Source: Azospirillum baldaniorum
GTDB taxonomy: Bacteria > Pseudomonadota > Alphaproteobacteria > Azospirillales > Azospirillaceae
Length of the DNA: 64,000 nt
Assembly: GCF_003119195.2 (NCBI RefSeq)
Contig: NZ_CP022253.1
Span: forward strand, 2,303,001 to 2,367,000
Direction: 5' to 3'
Shown piece by piece: positions 53,510 through 64,000 of the stretch. The position numbers and the translations under genes are program-made. Numbering within the stretch: the stretch's first letter is position 1; each line of letters opens with the position of its first letter. The notes below the pieces were generated by a model, which saw nothing but the letters and a program-made list of their open reading frames with translations, did not search any database and was not told where the DNA came from.

Positions 53510-54021
53510 CAGCCACGGGCCGCGCAGGCGCCAGGGACGTTAGATTGTTCGCCAAGCGAACAAGGTCAAGGAACATCCCATATGATGGAAACCTGCATCC
53601 GTTCGCTTACAAAGCAATCGGCGTGCCAGCGCAGGGTGGCGACGACGCAGGGCCGCCCCTTCCCCTTGCCGGGTTCCCGCATCGCTTTGAAACTCCACCT
53701 GAATAGCCTATGGCGTCGTTACCGGCGCCGGAGCGGCGCCACAGGATTCAACAGCGCGGCGACCGTCCCGGTGCCGCCGGCTGGGCTCCCCGCGCAACCA
53801 GGGCATGTCGTGTATGCGACAATCTGCCGCCCTTTTGGGCACAGCGTGTCGCTGCTCCGCAACCGACAGCCTTGAAGCGATGATCGGGACCCTTGCACGC
53901 GCGCGAATCGTTATGCCCACGAAAACAATTCCTGTTCTGCGCTGTTGTGACCTGAAGCATGCGGATTCAATAGCCGGAAGTTGTTGTGCGGCGGTGAGCG
54001 GGGGCCATCGTGGAGACATAT
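53510..54021. other. Divergent intergenic region
   Basis: The 512-bp gap holds a perfect inverted repeat, TTGTTCGC-CAA-GCGAACAA, at 53545-53563. A forward frame of about 97 codons (around 53585-53875) is Arg/Pro-rich with no family and is not called. AT content rises near 53880-53960 before the histidine kinase start. Confidence 0.5.
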
Positions 54022-55458
54022 ATGCCGAAACATGCGGACTCGGATGAACCGGACAGGGGTGGATCAACCACCGGCAAGGCGTTGCGGGACAGCCTGGAAG
54101 CTCTGAACCGCAACCTTGCCGAAGGGGTCCGGACCGCGGACCGTCTCCAGCGCGACGCCAGCCGCTTGGTCGAGGAAAGCGCGCGTCTGGCTGCCGAACT
54201 GGTCGAGCAGCGCCGCGAGATGGGGCGGCTCCGCGACCGGCTTCACCGCTCCGAGGACCGCCGCGCCGTTCGGGAGGAGGAACTGCGCCGTGCCCATGAG
54301 ACGGCGGAGCGCGCCAACCGGGCCAAGGCGCGCTTCCTGACCGCCGCCAGCCACGACCTGCGCCAGCCGATCCAGGCGGCGGCGCTCTATGCCCACATCC
54401 TGCGTGGCGCCGTCGGTTCCAACCCCTCGGCCAGAGAGGCGGCGGATCTGCTCCAGGCCTCCATCGACAGCCTGAGCGGTATGCTGAGCGGCCTTCTGGA
54501 CCTCGCCCGGCTGGAGGCCGGCGCGGTGGACGTCGTCGTCACGGAATTCCGCCCCGACGCGCTGATGCACCGTCTGGCCCAGGAATTCCGGGAGAGCGCA
54601 AGGACCGAGGGGACAAGCCTGCACGTCCACCCCTGCGGCGTGGCGGTGCGGACCGACCCGCGGCTGCTGGAACGGATACTGACCCATCTGCTGTCCAACG
54701 CCATCCGTCACGGCGGGGGAAACGGGCGGCGTGTTCTTCTGGGCTGCCGACGTCGCCCCGATGCGCTGGAATTTCAGGTGTGGGACGACGGACGGGGCAT
54801 TCCCCCCGACGCCCGGGCCGCCATCTTCGAAGAATTCCACCAGCTCGACAACCCGGAGCGCAGCGCGGCCAAGGGTTTCGGCCTCGGCCTGCCGCTGGTG
54901 GCCCGCATGGCGCGGCTGCTCGGCCTGACGCTGGACCTGCGGTCGCAGGTCGGGCGGGGTACGGTCTTCATGGTGACCGTTCCGCGCGCCGTCCTCCCCT
55001 CCAAACCCGACCGACGCCTGACCGCTGCCGCCCGCGCCATGGCCGTCGCCGCCACCAGCGCGGCGGCGACGGCATCACCAACGGATCGGATGAAGGGCCG
55101 GCGGGTGCTGCTGGTGGAGGACGACGAGCGGGTGCGCCATGCCATGACCATGCTGCTGAAACGCTGGGGCGTCCAGGTGACGGCCGTCGGCTCGGCGGAG
55201 GAGTTGGCTGACCGCCTGCCCCGGATGCGCCACCGCCCCCATGTGGTGCTGGCCGACCATCGCCTGCCCGGCGGCCAGACCGGCCGCACGGTGGCCGAGC
55301 TCGTGCGGAGCCGCTGGGATGTTCCGGTGGTCATCATCACCGGCGACACGGCGCCGGAACGGCTGCGCGAGGCGCGCTCCATCGGTTGCCGCCTGCTGCA
55401 CAAGCCGGTGGAACCCGGCGACCTCGCCGCCACGCTGGACGACGTCATGGACCCGTGA
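54022..55458 (+). CDS. Hybrid histidine kinase with C-terminal receiver domain
   Basis: The 478-residue protein has no transmembrane segment. An N-terminal coiled coil (about residues 20-105) leads to the HisKA box (FLTAASHDLRQPIQAAALYA, His111), then an HATPase_c domain with LLSNAIRHGGGNG (N box), WDDGRGIPPDARAAIFEEF (G1/F) and KGFGLGLPLVARMARLLG (G2). The receiver domain (about 355-478) carries phosphoacceptor Asp412 (VVLADHRLPGG). The signal is unknown. The ATG at 54022 has GGAG 7 bp upstream; a GTG at 54010 is possible. It ends in a 19-bp perfect hairpin. Confidence 0.92.
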   Translation: MPKHADSDEPDRGGSTTGKALRDSLEALNRNLAEGVRTADRLQRDASRLVEESARLAAELVEQRREMGRLRDRLHRSEDRRAVREEELRRAHETAERANRAKARFLTAASHDLRQPIQAAALYAHILRGAVGSNPSAREAADLLQASIDSLSGMLSGLLDLARLEAGAVDVVVTEFRPDALMHRLAQEFRESARTEGTSLHVHPCGVAVRTDPRLLERILTHLLSNAIRHGGGNGRRVLLGCRRRPDALEFQVWDDGRGIPPDARAAIFEEFHQLDNPERSAAKGFGLGLPLVARMARLLGLTLDLRSQVGRGTVFMVTVPRAVLPSKPDRRLTAAARAMAVAATSAAATASPTDRMKGRRVLLVEDDERVRHAMTMLLKRWGVQVTAVGSAEELADRLPRMRHRPHVVLADHRLPGGQTGRTVAELVRSRWDVPVVIITGDTAPERLREARSIGCRLLHKPVEPGDLAATLDDVMDP

Positions 55459-55499: not shown

Positions 55500-56047
55500 A
55501 ACCATAGGACCGACGCGGAAATAGACGACCCTTGGGACGTGTCCATTCATTAAGAGGATTTCCCAAACCCTCTCAGTAAATGCTGCAAACGGCTTGGTGC
55601 CTCCGTACGCAGAAGGGCGGAAATCCGACCGTGGGAGATTGGCCGCCTGCCCTGTCACCGACGGACCTCGGCGAAATGCGATCAGCAGCAAACAGGGCGC
55701 GGTGCTTGCTGCCACAATTTTCCACTGCGCTACTTTTGCTAGTGCTTTGTTCATCAACACATAGAATAGTACGATAAAATTGCGAAGACCTCATGAACGA
55801 ACCTCTGATAAGACAATAATTAATAACATATTAATACGCCATACATTGCAACATGCTGCAATTTGAAACACTGAAACAGTCTTGAATCCTTAATCTTGAC
55901 CAAAAACGCGCTGTGTCAAATGCTGTTTTCATGCTTTGACCGTATTGACCAGGGCATCCATTTGTGGGCATGTGAAATCAAACGGGGTACTCATTTCTTT
56001 CAGAAAATGGGCGTTCCCGATTGCATCCCATTCAGGAAACGCCCGCC
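55500..56047 (+). promoter_or_regulatory. AT-rich regulatory region and structured leader of the giant adhesin gene
   Basis: The 548-bp region is far more AT-rich than the rest of the window between about 55730 and 55960. It holds two palindromes: ATTAATA-N3-TATTAAT (55819-55835) and ATTGCA-N6-TGCAAT (55845-55862). Just before the start codon, GGGCGTTCC (56009-56017) can pair with GGAAACGCCC (56035-56044), a stem that includes the ribosome-binding AGGA at 56034-56037. No gene is seen. Confidence 0.6.
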
Positions 56048-59000
56048 ATGACCGAAGTGTCCGCCGTCGCCTCCACATCGCGCATCACCACCTCTGGTCG
56101 CTTCCCCCGCCCGGCAACCGAAATTGCCGTCATCGATACCGCTCTTGTTGGCTGGCGGGATCTTCAGGCGGGTCTTCCCGCCGGTATGGAAGCGGTTCTG
56201 ATCGGCGAGGGCCGCGACGGCGTGGCGGTGACGGCGCAGGCCCTGGCCGGGCGTTACGGCATCCGGGCTCTCCATGTGCTGTGCCATGGCTTCGAAGGCG
56301 GGTTGCAACTCGGCACGGCACGGCTCGACCAGGCGGCGCTGGCGGAGCGCAAGGCGGAACTGACGGCCATTGGCGCCTGCCTTGCCGATGATGGCGACAT
56401 CCTGCTGTACGGCTGCAACGTGGCGAGCGGTCACGGCGAGGCGTTCCTCGACGCGCTGGCCAACCTCACCGGAGCGAGCATGGCGGCGTCGCGGACTCCG
56501 ACGGGCGCCGCGGAGCTGGGTGGCGATTGGGATCTCGCCTGGACGCGGGGCGTCGTGCGGACCGAGACGCTGTGGATCGAGAGCTACATGGGCGTGCTGA
56601 TGGCGGCCCCCGAATCCGTGGACACCGTCGCCTATGTCGGCGAGTCCACCATCACCGTGACCTTCGACGGCAACCTCGACAGCGCCAGCCAGCCCGCCCT
56701 GTCCACCTTCGATGCGATTTCGCCCGGCGACATGTCCTGGGGCACCGGCGCCGTCCTGATCAACGGGGCGAAGGTCAACGTGACCGCCGCCGTTGTTTCC
56801 GGCAAGACCGTGACGCTGACCGTCAGCGGCACTCTCACGGCCGGCGACTACATCGAATTCCGCTACGTCGATCCGGCGGGCGACAACAGCAGCGGAGTGA
56901 TTCAGGCCACCAACGGCCTCGACGTCGCTTCGGTGTACATTGTAACCACGGTCATGGGACCGCGTCCTGCGGTGCCCCCGGTCCTGCAGAACGCGACGGT
57001 GAACGGCGCGTCGCTGGTGCTGACCTATGATATGGCGCTCGACTCCGCCAACCCGCCGACGGCGGGCGCTTTCACCGTCATGGCCGGCGGCTCGCCGGCC
57101 ACCGTCAGCAATGTCGTGGTGGACGGTGCGAACAAGACCGTTACCCTGACGCTGGCTCAGGCTGTTTCCCCCACCGATGCCGTGACGGTCGCCTACACCG
57201 ATCCGACGTCGGGCAACGACGCCAACGCCGTCCAGGGCACCACGGGCGTCGACGCCGCGACCTTCGCCGCGCAGTCGGTCACCAACAACACGCTCGACCC
57301 GAACGGCACCCCGCCGACGTTGACGCTGACGCCGGTCGACAGCTACGCCCAGCTCGTGATGGGCAACCCGACCTTCGACCTGTTCAATGCCGTCGGCGCC
57401 TCGACGGTGGACAGCGGGCAGACCTTCACCGGCATGGTGCTGACCGTCCACTATGTTGCGGGCACCGGCAGCAACGAGTTCCTGACCATTGCCGGAACCG
57501 ACATCGCGCTGAGCAACGGAAACTCGGGCAGCTTCACCGGCGGCAACTACGCGGTGACACTGGTGAACGGCGTCGCAACGGTGGCGATCAGCGGCATGGC
57601 GCTGAGCAACAGCGCGATGGGCACGCTGATCGACGGCATCGCCTACAAGACGACGACATCCACGCCTTCCAGCCTCAGCCAGACCAATTTCGGTTTCAGC
57701 GAAACACGCCCGATCGTCCTGCGCTCCATCACCGACAGCGGTGCCGCGAACAACACGACCGAGGTCAACAAGCTCGCCACCGCATCGTTCGGGATGCAGC
57801 CGGGCAACCTCTCGCCGATCACCATCACGCCGGACAACCCGACCGCCACCTTCACCGTCGGCACCCCGACCCGGCTTTCCTTTACGGTAAACATCAGCAC
57901 GGCGCTGACCCTGGTGGGAAGCACCCTCCACTTCGATGTGGCTGCCCCCAGCGGCTGGACGATCGCGAATCTCCAACTCGACGGGTTCGCGAACAACACC
58001 CTGACCGGCATCATCATGCTCGGGACCCAAACGCTGACCTTCGACGTGACGGCCTCCGGCGCGGACACGTCCGGCCACTTCCCCATCAGCATCTTCACCT
58101 CCACCAGCGGCCTGACTCCGTTCGCGTCGATTTCGGCCGGCTCCGTCATGGTGACGGTCGCCCCGCCGGCTCCGATGCTGCAAAGCGCGTCGGTGGATGG
58201 CACGACGCTGGTCCTCACCTATGACAGCGCGCTGGACGCGGCCAACCCGCCGGCGGCCGGCGCCTTCGAGGTCAAGGTCGGCGGCACCACGGTCACGGTC
58301 AGCAACGTCGCCGTGAACAGCGCCGACAAGACGGTCACGCTGACGCTCGCCCAGGCGGTCTCGGACAGGGACACGGTCACGGTCGCCTACACCGATCCCA
58401 CCACGGGCAACGACGCCAACGCCGTCCAGTCCCCCACCGGCACCGACGCCGCCAGCTTCACCGCCCAGCCGGTCACCAACACCACGCCGGACACCACCCC
58501 GCCGACGCTGACCTCGGCGGTGCTGAGCGGCACGACCCTGACCCTGACCTATTCGGAACTGCTGAACGGAGCCCAGGCTCCGACCGGGGCCTTCACGGTG
58601 ATGGTGGGCGGCGTAGCGCGGACGGTCACCGCGGTCGCCTCCAGCGGCAAGACGGTCACCCTGACGCTCGACGCCGGCGTGACCTCCGTCCATCAGACCG
58701 TCACGGTCGACTACACCCCGCCGGGCTCCGGCACAAAGACCACGGACGCCGCGGGCAACGCCGCGGGCGCGCTGACCGGTCATGGGGTGACGGTGCCGAA
58801 GGACCCCAACTTCGTCCTGGAGGGCACCAATCCCTTCGGCCTCAACACCACTGGCCCCTGGTCGATCCCGACCTTCGCCGACATCGACGGCGACGGCGAC
58901 ATCGACGCGCTCATCGGCATGGGCGACGGCACCATCCTGTTCTACCGGAACGATGGATCGGCGACGGCGCCCGGCTTCACCCTGGCGGGCACCAACCCCT

Positions 59001-62000
59001 TCGGGTTGAGCCAGCTCGATATGAACGCCTCCCCGATCTTCGTGGACATCGACGGGAACGGCACGCTCGACGCGCTGATCGGCGACTTCAACGGCAACAC
59101 GGTGGTCTACCGGAACGTCGGGACCGCGACGGCGCCCAGCTTCACCCTGGTCGGCACCAACCCCTTCGGACTGGGCAGTGTCGGAACGGCCACCACCCCC
59201 TCCTTCGTGGACATCGACGGCGACGGCGATCTCGACGCGCTGATCGGCAACTACGACGGCAACACAGTGTTCTTCCGGAACATCGGCACGGCGACGGCTC
59301 CCAGCTTCGCCCTGGAGAGCACCAATCCCTTCGGGCTGGGTGACGCCGGCAGCTACGCCCAGCCGACTTTCGTGGACGTCGACGGCGACGGCGACCTCGA
59401 CGCGCTGATCGGCAATTTTGCCGGCGACATGCTGTTCTACCGGAACGTGGGATCGGCGACGGCGCCCAGCTTCACGCTGGAGGGCACCAATCCCTTCGGG
59501 CTGGAGAATGTCACCTTCAAGTCCGTCCCGAGCATCGTGGACATCGACGGGGACGGCGATCTCGACGTGCTGGCGGGCGGCGACAGCATCGGCAACAAAA
59601 TCATCCTGTTCCGCAACCTGCCGCAGCCGCCGACCAACCTCGCGTTGACCGCGGGCACCAACAGCGGTTCCACGACGGACACGCTGACCAACGCCACGGC
59701 CCCGGCGATCACCGGCCAAGCCAAGGCGCTGTCCACGGTGGTGCTGTACGAGGGCGCGACGGCGCTGGGAACGGTGACGGCCGACGCCAACGGCCTGTGG
59801 ACCATCACAACGGCCTCGCTGAGCGACGGCGCTCATTCCCTGACCGCCGTGTCGACCGACGTCACCGGCTCGTCGCCGGCCTCCAGCACGCTGACGGTGA
59901 CCATCGACAGCGGGGCGCCCAACGCTCCGGCGGTGACCAGCGCGGCGCTGAGCAACAGCGCCACCCCGACCCTCAGCGGCACGGCTGAAGCCGGGGCGAC
60001 GGTGACGGTCACGGTGGGCGGCGCCACCTACACCACCACGGCGACCAACGGCAACTGGTCGATCAACCTCGCCACCGCGACGCCGACTGCCGGCTCCCTG
60101 AGCCTGAACGCCAACGGCGCCAACCCCGTTACGGCCACGGCCACCGACGCGGCGGGCAACACGTCGTCCGCCGGCACCCAGACGCTGACCATCGACACCA
60201 CCGCGCCCAACGCTCCGGCGGTGACCAGCGCAACCCTGAGCAACAACGCCACCCCGATCCTCACCGGCACGGCGGAAGCCGGCAGCACGGTGACCGTCAC
60301 CGTCGGTGGGGCGACCTACACCACCACGGCGACCAACGGGACCTGGAGCGTCAACCTCGCCACGGCGACGCCGACCGCCGGCTCCCTGACCCTGAACGCC
60401 AACGGCAGCAACGCCGTCTCGGCCACCGCCACCGATGCCGCGGGCAATGTCTCGGCCCCCGGCACGCAAGCGCTGACCATCGACACCACCGCGCCAACCG
60501 CCCCGACCGTCACGACGGCGCTGAGCAACAACGCCACCCCGATCCTCACCGGTTCGGCGGAAGCGGGCAGCACCGTCGCCGTCACCGTCGGTGGGGCGAC
60601 CTACACCACCACGGCGACCAACGGGACCTGGAGCGTCAACCTCGCCACCGCGACACCGACCGCCGGCTCGCTGAGCCTCGATGCCAACGGCGCCAACGCC
60701 GTCTCGGCCACCGCCACCGATGCCGCGGGCAACGTCTCCACGCCGGGCACCCAGTCGCTGACCATCGACACCACCGCGCCAACCGCCCCGACCGTCACGA
60801 CGGCGCTGAGCAACAACGCCACCCCGATCCTCACCGGTTCGGCGGAAGCGGGCAGCACCGTCGCCGTCACCGTTGGTGGGGCGACCTACACCACCACGGC
60901 GACCAACGGGACCTGGAGCGTCAACCTCGCCACCGCGACACCGACCGCCGGCTCGCTGAGCCTCGATGCCAACGGCGCCAACCCCGTCACGGCGACGGCG
61001 ACCGATGCGGCCGGCAACGTCTCCACGCCGGGCACGCAGTCGCTGACCATCGACACCACCGCGCCCAACGCTCCGGCGGTGACCAGCGCGGCGCTGACCA
61101 AGAACGCCACCCCGACCGTTGCGGGCACAGCGGAGGCCGGCAGCACGGTGACCGTCACGGTGGGTGGGGCGACCTACACCACCACGGCGACCAATGGAAA
61201 CTGGTCCATCAACCTCGCAACGGCGACGCCGACCGCCGGCCCCCTGATCCTGAACGCCAACGGCGCCAACCCGGTGTCGGCCACCGCCACCGACGCGGCG
61301 GGCAACACCTCGGCTCCCGGTACGCAAACGCTGACCATCGACACCACCGCTCCGACCGCTCCGACCGTCGCCACGGCGCTGACCAACAGCACGACGCCCA
61401 CCCTCACCGGCACGGCGGAAACCGGCAGCACCGTCACCGTCACGGTGGGCGGCGCCACCTACACCACGACGGCGACCAACGGGGCCTGGAGCCTCAACCT
61501 CGCCACGGCGACGCCGACCGCCGGCTCGCTCAGCCTCGACGCCAACGGCGCCAACCCGGTCTCCGCAACGGCCACCGACGCCGCGGGTAACACCTCCTCG
61601 GCCGGCACGCAGTCGCTGACCATCGACACCACACTGCCCAACGCTCCGGCGGTGACCAGTGCGGCATTGAGCAACAGCACCACGCCAACCCTCACCGGTA
61701 CGGCGGAAGTGGGCAGCACCGTCACCGTCACGGTGGGCGGCGCCACCTACACCACCACGGCGACCAACGGCAGCTGGTCCATCAACCTCGCCACCGCGAC
61801 GCCGACCTCCGGCTCGCTCAGCCTCAACGCCAACGGCGCCAACCCGGTCTCCGCCACGGCAACCGACGCGGCGGGCAACGTCTCGGCCCCCGGCACGCAA
61901 GCGCTGACCATCGACACCACGGCGCCGAGCGCGCCCTCGGTGACCAGCGCGGCGCTGACCAACAGCACGACGCCGACCGTCGCCGGCACGGCGGAGGCCG

Positions 62001-64000
62001 GCAGCACGGTGACCGTCACGGTGGGTGGCGCCACCTACACCACCACCGCCACGAACGGCGGCGCCTGGACCCTCAACCTCGCCACGGCCACACCGGTCAC
62101 CGGCACGCTCAGCCTCAACGCCAACGGCGCCAACCCGGTCTCGGCCACCGCCACGGATGCCGCTGGCAACATCTCGGCGCCGGGCACGCAGTCGCTGACC
62201 GTCGACACCACCGCGCCCACCGCGCCGGCGGTGACCAGCCCCGCGCTGAGCAACAGCACGACGCCGACCCTCACCGGCTCGGCCGAGGCCGGCAGCACCG
62301 TCACCGTCACCATCGGTGGGGCGACCTACACCACCACCGCGACCAACGGGACTTGGAGCCTCAACCTCGCCACCGCCACTCCGGTGACCGGCATGCTCAG
62401 CCTCAACCCGAACGGCGCCAACCCGGTCTCGGCCACGGCGACCGACGCCGCGGGCAACACCTCCTCGGCCGGCAGCCAGTCGCTGACCATCGACACCACG
62501 CTGCCCGATGCCCCGACCGTCGCCACGGCGCTGAGCAACAGCACGACGCCAACCCTCACCGGCACGGCGGAAGTGGGCAGCACGGTGACCGTCACGGTGG
62601 GTGGAGCGACCTACACCACCACCGCCACGAACGGCGGAAACTGGTCCATCAACCTCGCCACGGCGACGCCGACCGCCGGGTCGCTGACCCTGAACGCCAA
62701 CGGCACGAACGCCGTCTCGGCCACCGCCACCGATGCCTCGGGCAACGTCTCGGCACCGGGCACCCAGTCGTTGGTCATCGACACCACGCTGCCCGACGCC
62801 CCGACCGTTGCCACGGCGCTGACCAACAGCACGACGCCCACCCTCACCGGCACGGCCGAGGCCGGCAGCACCGTCACCGTCACCGTCGGTGGGGCGACCT
62901 ACACCACCACCGCCACGAACGGCGGCGCCTGGAGCCTCAACCTCGCCACCGCCACTCCGGTCTCCGGCACGCTCAGCCTCAACCCGAACGGCGCCAACCC
63001 GGTCTCGGCCACCGCCACGGATGCCGCCGGCAACATCTCGGCGCCGGGCACGCAGTCCCTGACCGTCGACACCACCCCGCCGACGGCCAGCGTGCTGTTC
63101 GAGGACGACAGCATCGATGCCATCGAGCAGTCCAGCGCCGCCTTCACCATCAGCGGCGGCGAGGCCGGGACCAGCTTCACCTGGACGATCACCTCGGCCG
63201 GCGGCGGCCAGGTCACCGGCGGCGGCGTGATGAGCGGCCCGACCATGCGGGTGACCGGGCTGGACCTCTCCGCCCTGGGCGACGGCACGCTCACCCTGAC
63301 CCTCGGCCTGACCGACCCGGCGGGCAACGCCGCGCCGCCCTTCACCGCGACGACGCAGAAGCTCACCGCCACCGTGGAGAAGCCCGCCCCGGTCGCCCCG
63401 CCGCCGACGGCCACCGTGGACGGCGCCACCGTCAACGGCTCGATCACCACCGGCGGCGACGGCAAGCGCGTCACCACCGTGACCATCGCGGCCAGCAACA
63501 GCAACCGCGTCGAGGACACCAGCACCGCCAACGCCGACCTCGCCGACGTGCCGGTGGTGCGCGAGCAGGTGGTCGACCGCCAGACCGGTGCGGTGTCCAC
63601 CGTCACCACCCTGACGGTCAGCGTCTCCACCGGCGTGGCCGTCACCACCTCGGGCAGCGCCGAGCGGCAGACCGCCGCGGAGGCGCAGAGCGGGCTGACC
63701 GGCCTGATCGCCGCCATCGAGGCGCGCACCGACGCCGGCACCGCCTCGCGCGGCAACCTGACCGGCGGCGGCGACGGCTTCCTCTCGGTGCTCTCCGCCC
63801 AGGCCCAGCTCCTGGTGCGCGCCATCGACTTCAGCACGCCGGGGGTGGCCGCCGGCCAGGCGGTGCAGACCAGGGTGACCGGCAACACGCTGGGCGGCAC
63901 CGGCGTCGCCAGCACGGCGCCGACCGCGGTGGTGCTCGACACCACGGCGGCGGCGGGTCCGGTGACCATCCAGCTCGACAACGTCGAGTTCGCGGCGGTG
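56048..64000 (+). CDS. Giant DUF4347/SwmB/FG-GAP/Ig-repeat surface protein, partial at the right edge
   Basis: The frame is open for 2651 codons from ATG 56048 to the window end, without a stop. Domains in order: DUF4347 (about residues 25-185, with VLCHGFEGG and LLYGCNVASG placing His80 and Cys123 as a possible clan CD-like dyad); SwmB-like adhesion repeats (about 190-415 and 710-915, for example LVLTYDMALDSANPP); five 55-residue FG-GAP/VCBS-type units (918-1196) with calcium-binding DxDGDGDxD loops; one divergent and eleven regular Ig-like repeats of about 95 residues (1290-2342); then a different beta-rich region. There is no Sec signal peptide, so type I secretion with a C-terminal signal beyond the window is inferred. 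A role in adhesion or biofilm is inferred. Confidence 0.9.
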   Translation, partial: MTEVSAVASTSRITTSGRFPRPATEIAVIDTALVGWRDLQAGLPAGMEAVLIGEGRDGVAVTAQALAGRYGIRALHVLCHGFEGGLQLGTARLDQAALAERKAELTAIGACLADDGDILLYGCNVASGHGEAFLDALANLTGASMAASRTPTGAAELGGDWDLAWTRGVVRTETLWIESYMGVLMAAPESVDTVAYVGESTITVTFDGNLDSASQPALSTFDAISPGDMSWGTGAVLINGAKVNVTAAVVSGKTVTLTVSGTLTAGDYIEFRYVDPAGDNSSGVIQATNGLDVASVYIVTTVMGPRPAVPPVLQNATVNGASLVLTYDMALDSANPPTAGAFTVMAGGSPATVSNVVVDGANKTVTLTLAQAVSPTDAVTVAYTDPTSGNDANAVQGTTGVDAATFAAQSVTNNTLDPNGTPPTLTLTPVDSYAQLVMGNPTFDLFNAVGASTVDSGQTFTGMVLTVHYVAGTGSNEFLTIAGTDIALSNGNSGSFTGGNYAVTLVNGVATVAISGMALSNSAMGTLIDGIAYKTTTSTPSSLSQTNFGFSETRPIVLRSITDSGAANNTTEVNKLATASFGMQPGNLSPITITPDNPTATFTVGTPTRLSFTVNISTALTLVGSTLHFDVAAPSGWTIANLQLDGFANNTLTGIIMLGTQTLTFDVTASGADTSGHFPISIFTSTSGLTPFASISAGSVMVTVAPPAPMLQSASVDGTTLVLTYDSALDAANPPAAGAFEVKVGGTTVTVSNVAVNSADKTVTLTLAQAVSDRDTVTVAYTDPTTGNDANAVQSPTGTDAASFTAQPVTNTTPDTTPPTLTSAVLSGTTLTLTYSELLNGAQAPTGAFTVMVGGVARTVTAVASSGKTVTLTLDAGVTSVHQTVTVDYTPPGSGTKTTDAAGNAAGALTGHGVTVPKDPNFVLEGTNPFGLNTTGPWSIPTFADIDGDGDIDALIGMGDGTILFYRNDGSATAPGFTLAGTNPFGLSQLDMNASPIFVDIDGNGTLDALIGDFNGNTVVYRNVGTATAPSFTLVGTNPFGLGSVGTATTPSFVDIDGDGDLDALIGNYDGNTVFFRNIGTATAPSFALESTNPFGLGDAGSYAQPTFVDVDGDGDLDALIGNFAGDMLFYRNVGSATAPSFTLEGTNPFGLENVTFKSVPSIVDIDGDGDLDVLAGGDSIGNKIILFRNLPQPPTNLALTAGTNSGSTTDTLTNATAPAITGQAKALSTVVLYEGATALGTVTADANGLWTITTASLSDGAHSLTAVSTDVTGSSPASSTLTVTIDSGAPNAPAVTSAALSNSATPTLSGTAEAGATVTVTVGGATYTTTATNGNWSINLATATPTAGSLSLNANGANPVTATATDAAGNTSSAGTQTLTIDTTAPNAPAVTSATLSNNATPILTGTAEAGSTVTVTVGGATYTTTATNGTWSVNLATATPTAGSLTLNANGSNAVSATATDAAGNVSAPGTQALTIDTTAPTAPTVTTALSNNATPILTGSAEAGSTVAVTVGGATYTTTATNGTWSVNLATATPTAGSLSLDANGANAVSATATDAAGNVSTPGTQSLTIDTTAPTAPTVTTALSNNATPILTGSAEAGSTVAVTVGGATYTTTATNGTWSVNLATATPTAGSLSLDANGANPVTATATDAAGNVSTPGTQSLTIDTTAPNAPAVTSAALTKNATPTVAGTAEAGSTVTVTVGGATYTTTATNGNWSINLATATPTAGPLILNANGANPVSATATDAAGNTSAPGTQTLTIDTTAPTAPTVATALTNSTTPTLTGTAETGSTVTVTVGGATYTTTATNGAWSLNLATATPTAGSLSLDANGANPVSATATDAAGNTSSAGTQSLTIDTTLPNAPAVTSAALSNSTTPTLTGTAEVGSTVTVTVGGATYTTTATNGSWSINLATATPTSGSLSLNANGANPVSATATDAAGNVSAPGTQALTIDTTAPSAPSVTSAALTNSTTPTVAGTAEAGSTVTVTVGGATYTTTATNGGAWTLNLATATPVTGTLSLNANGANPVSATATDAAGNISAPGTQSLTVDTTAPTAPAVTSPALSNSTTPTLTGSAEAGSTVTVTIGGATYTTTATNGTWSLNLATATPVTGMLSLNPNGANPVSATATDAAGNTSSAGSQSLTIDTTLPDAPTVATALSNSTTPTLTGTAEVGSTVTVTVGGATYTTTATNGGNWSINLATATPTAGSLTLNANGTNAVSATATDASGNVSAPGTQSLVIDTTLPDAPTVATALTNSTTPTLTGTAEAGSTVTVTVGGATYTTTATNGGAWSLNLATATPVSGTLSLNPNGANPVSATATDAAGNISAPGTQSLTVDTTPPTASVLFEDDSIDAIEQSSAAFTISGGEAGTSFTWTITSAGGGQVTGGGVMSGPTMRVTGLDLSALGDGTLTLTLGLTDPAGNAAPPFTATTQKLTATVEKPAPVAPPPTATVDGATVNGSITTGGDGKRVTTVTIAASNSNRVEDTSTANADLADVPVVREQVVDRQTGAVSTVTTLTVSVSTGVAVTTSGSAERQTAAEAQSGLTGLIAAIEARTDAGTASRGNLTGGGDGFLSVLSAQAQLLVRAIDFSTPGVAAGQAVQTRVTGNTLGGTGVASTAPTAVVLDTTAAAGPVTIQLDNVEFAAV
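58802..59633 (+). repeat. Five FG-GAP/VCBS-like repeats
   Basis: Five units of about 165-170 bp each encode a TNPFGL turn, then VDIDGDGDLDALIG (a calcium-binding loop) and FYRNVGTATAPS. They lie in the giant surface protein and probably form blades of a beta-propeller-like fold. Confidence 0.8.
59915..63072 (+). repeat. Eleven tandem Ig-like repeats of about 285-291 bp
   Basis: Units begin near 59915, 60203, 60491, 60776, 61061, 61349, 61634, 61922, 62210, 62501 and 62786. Each encodes APxAPxVTSAALSN, TPTLTGTAEAGSTVTVTVGG, ATYTTTATNG, NLATATPTAGSLSLNANG and ATDAAGN elements. Lengths stay multiples of three. Units three and four are almost identical in DNA. Bacterial Ig (Big/Bap-like) type. 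Confidence 0.88.

Follow-up and report, generated by a model that had tools for sequence, protein, structure and literature searches.

Architecture of the giant DUF4347 gene

What kind of protein is encoded by the giant gene, headed by a DUF4347 domain, that runs off the right end of the analyzed Azospirillum baldaniorum DNA, how would it leave the cell, and what might its head do? The window (the whole stretch of 64 kb) lies on contig C1 (2303001-2367000) of a genome of 7.68 Mb in seven contigs. In our view, the gene probably encodes an RTX adhesin-type protein that is exported by a type I secretion system (T1SS), carries a clan CD protease-type head and is one of five paralogues with converted tails. 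The domain architecture, the RTX tail, the conserved T1SS neighbours, the head fold, the invariant His and Cys and the tail homogenisation were all obtained computationally.

The gene is located on the + strand, starts with an ATG at 56048, preceded by a ribosome-site-like AGGAAA, and ends with a stop at 64873, i.e., 873 bases beyond the window (positions past 64000 are given in window-equivalent numbering). It encodes 2941 residues. The first-pass annotation, made from the letters of the window, had reported more than 2650 residues of a continuing gene with DUF4347, SWM, FG-GAP and Ig-stalk regions in this order and without a Sec signal; the complete gene and its Pfam matches bear this out. 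The features are as follows.

56048..64000, +: giant RTX adhesin-like gene, window part; the open frame continues to 64873
56048..56122, +: leader of 25 residues, without a Sec-like hydrophobic stretch and without the LEPR motif
56123..56572, +: DUF4347 head, residues 26-175, predicted caspase/CHAT-like fold (Pfam and AlphaFold model)
56285..56287, +: His80, predicted catalytic, equivalent to Tce1 His186 (alignment)
56414..56416, +: Cys123, predicted catalytic, equivalent to Tce1 Cys240 (alignment, Cys pattern)
56960..58801, +: SWM (swm_rep_I) repeat region, approximate borders (Pfam, NCBIfam)
58802..59614, +: FG-GAP-like repeats, residues 945-1165, with five DxDGDGxxD calcium motifs (Pfam)
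59615..63067, +: immunoglobulin (Ig)-like repeats of ~95 residues, calcium-stabilised (Big_13 / Ca_tandemer), to about residue 2340, approximate borders
63173..64000, +: homogenised C-terminal cassette of ~1.7 kb, common to five genes, window part
from 63380, +: pre-RTX module without a Pfam match, residues ~2445-2655
64007-64870 (window-equivalent), +: RTX nonapeptide block and C-terminal tail, beyond the window edge
54010..55458, +: hybrid sensor kinase/response regulator, upstream neighbour

The Pfam matches comprise DUF4347 (PF14252; residues 26-175, 140 bits, more exactly 140.5 against a gathering cutoff of 24.6), three SWM_repeat, four FG-GAP and 12 Big_13/Big_6 matches. Past the window edge, six HemolysinCabind stretches (140 bits) correspond to glycine-rich RTX repeats near the C-terminus. 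The open frame at 56000-64000 on the opposite strand most likely mirrors the sense gene as a result of high GC. Plasmid matches were all from Azospirillum, and a contig scan with a single protein also returned only this genus.

Fold of the head and its putative catalytic pair

The AlphaFold model of the head (predicted local distance difference test, pLDDT, 81; predicted template modelling score, pTM, 0.80) was best matched by 9qpe_G (Foldseek E 1.6e-4; VIA Z 13.4 over 145 residues), followed by SAVED-CHAT (Z 8.7), Craspase (Z 7.0-7.5) and a C11 protease (Z 7.2). Caspases proper matched more weakly (Z 6-7), and legumain and the TcdB protease domain (Z ~6.3) were found as well. The best match, 9qpe_G, is Tce1/PA0256, an Hcp3-bound putative cysteine protease of the type VI secretion system (T6SS), whose His186 and Cys240 were aligned by its authors with the TcdB dyad (PMC13323088); PA0256 had earlier been noted as holding DUF4347 (PMC8262886). 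In our sequence alignment, His80 and Cys123 fall on these two residues. In the model, His80 (model residue 63) follows the strand 55-61 and Cys123 (model residue 106) the strand 95-104.

Thus, the model supports a predicted clan CD (caspase/CHAT-like) fold, and we infer from the alignment that His80 and Cys123 form the putative catalytic dyad. The first-pass annotation had likened this pair to clan CD peptidases and proposed a structural comparison with caspase-like folds; its residue numbering proved exact, and the comparison pointed where it had suggested. It should be mentioned that the fold assignment of DUF4347 is already implied by recent work, and what is new here is its place on RTX giants. 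TIM-barrel matches of the DUF4347 profile in the PDB were rejected as repeat artefacts.

Conservation of the pair was analyzed in 69 aligned DUF4347 sequences, a biased set consisting mostly of top-scoring matches, and H80, G81, D117, Y121, C123, A146, S148, G153, W161, L163 and G168 were invariant in all 69. One member from a viral contig (L084) has Asn in place of His80. Among orthologues, the ratio of nonsynonymous to synonymous substitution rates (dN/dS) of DUF4347 was 0.16-0.29, i.e., the domain is under purifying selection.

The distribution of cysteines is also informative. The window protein has only three in 2941 residues (79, 111 and 123), all of them inside DUF4347. In paralogue G the single Cys is the equivalent of Cys123, and paralogue C retains beyond its leader only the equivalent cysteine of a YGC motif, with one more in the leader. 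The paralogues B (4234 residues), D (2998) and F (4006), which lack DUF4347, have none. The retention of Cys123 in proteins otherwise purged of cysteine argues for a chemical role. A catalytic role of the head appears likely, while self-processing in particular is a possibility that we put forward only tentatively.

Two other roles of the head should be weighed against these data. First, DUF4347 could act as a plug without catalytic activity: a compact fold at the N-terminus would jam a TolC-like channel and so play the part of the LapA retention module with a different family. This would suit its N-terminal position, the missing signal peptide and the result of our search for LapG (PF06035), which found no homologue in 45 Azospirillum genomes and did find one in the Caulobacter control. 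However, a plug would require neither an invariant His80 and Cys123 nor a Cys kept in Cys-purged proteins, and we consider it improbable. Second, the head could be a protease acting on proteins outside the cell, be they from plants, competitors or the matrix, with the RTX/Ig body serving only to display or deliver it. The closest fold relative, Tce1, is indeed a T6SS-delivered putative cysteine protease, and some DUF4347 proteins are compact and have few Ig repeats or none at all, such as those of the tandem genes on contig C4 described below. On the other hand, the N-terminus of a T1SS substrate is the last part to leave and often stays nearest to the cell, which would give the head a poor reach to such targets, and the long stalk together with the protease-less heads of the sister proteins point to adhesion; the outside-target role is thus rather unlikely.

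Homogenised tails of five paralogues

The last ~1.7 kb of the gene are shared with four others. These tails are mostly 97-100% identical, with single 200-base bins down to 93%, and the five genes are distributed over four replicons (two on C1, one each on C2, C3 and C7). Identity falls to background shortly past the stop codon, and the flanks differ. A sixth gene on C5 has a diverged tail (~66-68%). The heads of the five genes are of different kinds: DUF4347 in A and C, FG-GAP in B and D, and another type in E.

The same head types recur in other Azospirillum species, several with alignable flanks, while their tails are closest to tails of the same genome. Comparison of the tails revealed that: (i) their mean DNA identity is 97.3% within genomes versus 91.2% between head-orthologues; (ii) their median dS is 0.024 within genomes (leaving out G003_c, one copy that escaped homogenisation) versus 0.15 between genomes; (iii) the tail tree requires five changes for six genomes together, which is the minimum, two genome groups are strongly supported, and G003 alone needs two; and (iv) the informative sites of the A and E loci in five genomes support grouping by genome in 1066 cases, grouping by locus in three and neither in two, these counts being sums over ten non-independent genome pairs. 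In 200 of 223 cases, likewise, an Ig repeat had its closest relative in a paralogue of the same genome.

Near-identical tails might instead reflect recent duplication of whole genes or mis-assembly, since long repeats are hard to assemble and one copy in genome G007 sits on a 19-kb contig. This is very improbable. Head types A and E are found in several species together with orthologous flanks, from which it follows that these loci predate the species, yet in five independent genomes the tails sort by genome at 1066 sites to three, and the tail copies differ by real substitutions. Lineage-specific whole-gene duplication was rejected on the same grounds, orthologous heads and flanks being combined with genome-specific tails. 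The simplest explanation is intragenomic gene conversion between replicons, and the pattern is one of an export/stalk cassette evolving in concert behind heads of diverse kinds.

Two further observations were made on the tails. They are less diverged between species (dS ~0.15) than the DUF4347 heads (0.27-0.48); intragenomic conversion alone is insufficient for this, and tail exchange between species or codon constraint could be involved. The 19-kb contig mentioned above (L128, G007:C8), about half of which is filled by a whole D-type copy, might be a small replicon or else a fragment of the assembly.

The homogenised tails indicate that giant surface genes which are unlinked and lie on different replicons swap their stalk/export ends while keeping separate heads, and this may offer a root bacterium a route to diversify surface functions. 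In addition, repeats so nearly identical call for caution about mis-assembly and cross-hybridisation when these genomes are studied.

Secretion and neighbouring genes

Type I secretion, proposed by the first-pass annotation, gained support to the right of the window, where the RTX block is followed by a tail of ~60 residues resembling the C-terminal end of the PueAB esterase model (NCBIfam), a family of T1SS-exported proteins. At the other end, no hydrophobic stretch was seen in the 25-residue leader, to which no signal-prediction program was applied. Downstream of the stop we found genes for a methyltransferase, a LysR regulator, an SDR, two small proteins, a 250-residue RTX protein, a PrtD-like ATP-binding cassette (ABC) transporter 4.6 kb away (588 bits, cutoff 510) and, paired with it, HlyD (376 bits, cutoff 209). 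ABC and HlyD genes, which the first-pass annotation had proposed to look for, do exist at this distance; no OEP/TolC gene was identified at the locus. The 250-residue RTX gene (L009:14664-15416) directly precedes the ABC and HlyD genes and is kept in four other species.

The gene order, including the upstream sensor kinase, is conserved in four other Azospirillum species (G003, G008, G014 and G035; ~83-99% protein identity), with the methyltransferase match missing in G008 and G014. The kinase itself (54010-55458), correctly noticed in the first pass, is NahK/ErcS-like by NCBIfam, below the curated cutoff, and its position next to the gene in all four species suggests that it may control it. 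Taken together, the RTX block, the tail and the syntenic T1SS genes support the window protein as a putative type I substrate exported C-terminus first.

Is the protein held at the surface or released to the medium as an RTX exoprotein? Its RTX tail is like those of secreted T1SS proteins, and no known anchor or retention module was found with NCBIfam, including that of LapA. In contrast, repeated Ig and FG-GAP domains typify fibrillar adhesins that stay bound to the cell, and release into the medium seems to us fairly unlikely. Putative adhesion and root binding are suggested by the architecture and the neighbourhood.

Proposed mode of action

The protein would be synthesised without a signal peptide and exported through the T1SS with the C-terminus first; we infer that the RTX and Ig repeats would then fold outside the cell, driven by calcium, and that the protein would attach to the surface. 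The DUF4347 head would leave the cell last. Speculatively, it might then, through proteolysis by His80/Cys123, cut the stalk of the protein itself or a different surface protein, which would make it an intrinsic switch for release or processing. Retention and release of the LapA type are unlikely, because no LapG homologue was found in 45 genomes of the genus and no retention module in the protein.

Several points weigh against the probable adhesin with a protease-type head. The head model was built on 14 sequences only, and proteolysis by the head is a prediction. Even for Tce1, the published study did not demonstrate proteolysis, and Tce1 was not toxic in yeast (PMC13323088). DUF4347 is missing from three of the five paralogues, which makes the head dispensable for export. 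No ligand-binding domain was identified in the window protein. Finally, the T1SS pair lies ~4.6 kb off behind unrelated genes with the small RTX gene directly before it, and thus the transporter may serve other cargo.

A broader hypothesis, which we regard as doubtful, is that DUF4347, as a self-processing protease, takes the place of both the LapA retention module and LapG and serves as the release switch of T1SS giants in much of the phylum, with a shared gene-converted export cassette letting one genome run several interchangeable heads. A clan CD placement with a specific dyad makes a one-mutation test possible.

Distribution of DUF4347

DUF4347 was found in 40 of 45 Azospirillum genomes and in 95 of 398 sampled genomes of the phylum (94 above the cutoff), often in very large genes. 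Five of the six DUF4347 genes of this genome carry RTX; the sixth adjoins an OEP/TolC-family gene.

Other members of the family were revealed as well. A protein of 4068 residues (L090:3124-17259) has the LEPR motif and no RTX match, and its gene is directly followed by an OEP/TolC-family gene. Two compact tandem DUF4347-RTX genes (958 and 798 residues; contig C4, L092:4580-10182) are devoid of the Ig-stalk architecture. An H-type copy (L130, G007:C3:203000-212000), with its tail split between two frames, is likely decayed.

A LEPR[FIVL][ML][FY]DAAG-like motif upstream of DUF4347 was present in 38 of 67 family members (L023-L082), LEQR/LEAR variants being uncounted, and is missing from the window gene. 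Its similarity to the NCBIfam LEPR-XLL domain is weak; the motif may serve as a site for sorting or cleavage.

Comparison with known systems

The literature searched contained neither a function of DUF4347 in adhesins nor concerted tails in RTX adhesins, and its titles and abstract openings held no description of these Azospirillum genes. The window protein is similar to T1SS adhesins of the LapA/MpAFP type: it is giant, has an Ig-like stalk stabilised by calcium and ends in an RTX block and a T1SS tail. Unlike them, it has DUF4347 at the N-terminus instead of a recognised retention module, and no LapG homologue was found in its genus.

In fold and in the positions of His and Cys, the head resembles Tce1 and the clan CD cysteine protease domains of clostridial toxins and MARTX (Z 13.4 for Tce1, ~6.3 for TcdB). 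However, Tce1 is a T6SS cargo effector of 310 residues, whereas here DUF4347 heads an RTX protein of 2941. The caspase-like fold is also shared with the CHAT proteases (SAVED-CHAT, Craspase TPR-CHAT; Z ~6.3-8.7); these are defence enzymes that work inside the cell, are joined to other partner domains and show no significant sequence match.

An analogy can be drawn with the gingipains RgpA/Kgp and HagA of P. gingivalis (PMC5266723), in which a caspase-fold protease is joined to adhesin domains and the genes have adhesin segments in common that were rearranged among them. Unlike the window protein, gingipains are exported by Sec and the type IX secretion system and have other domains and no DUF4347; the likeness is thus one of convergence, not of membership.
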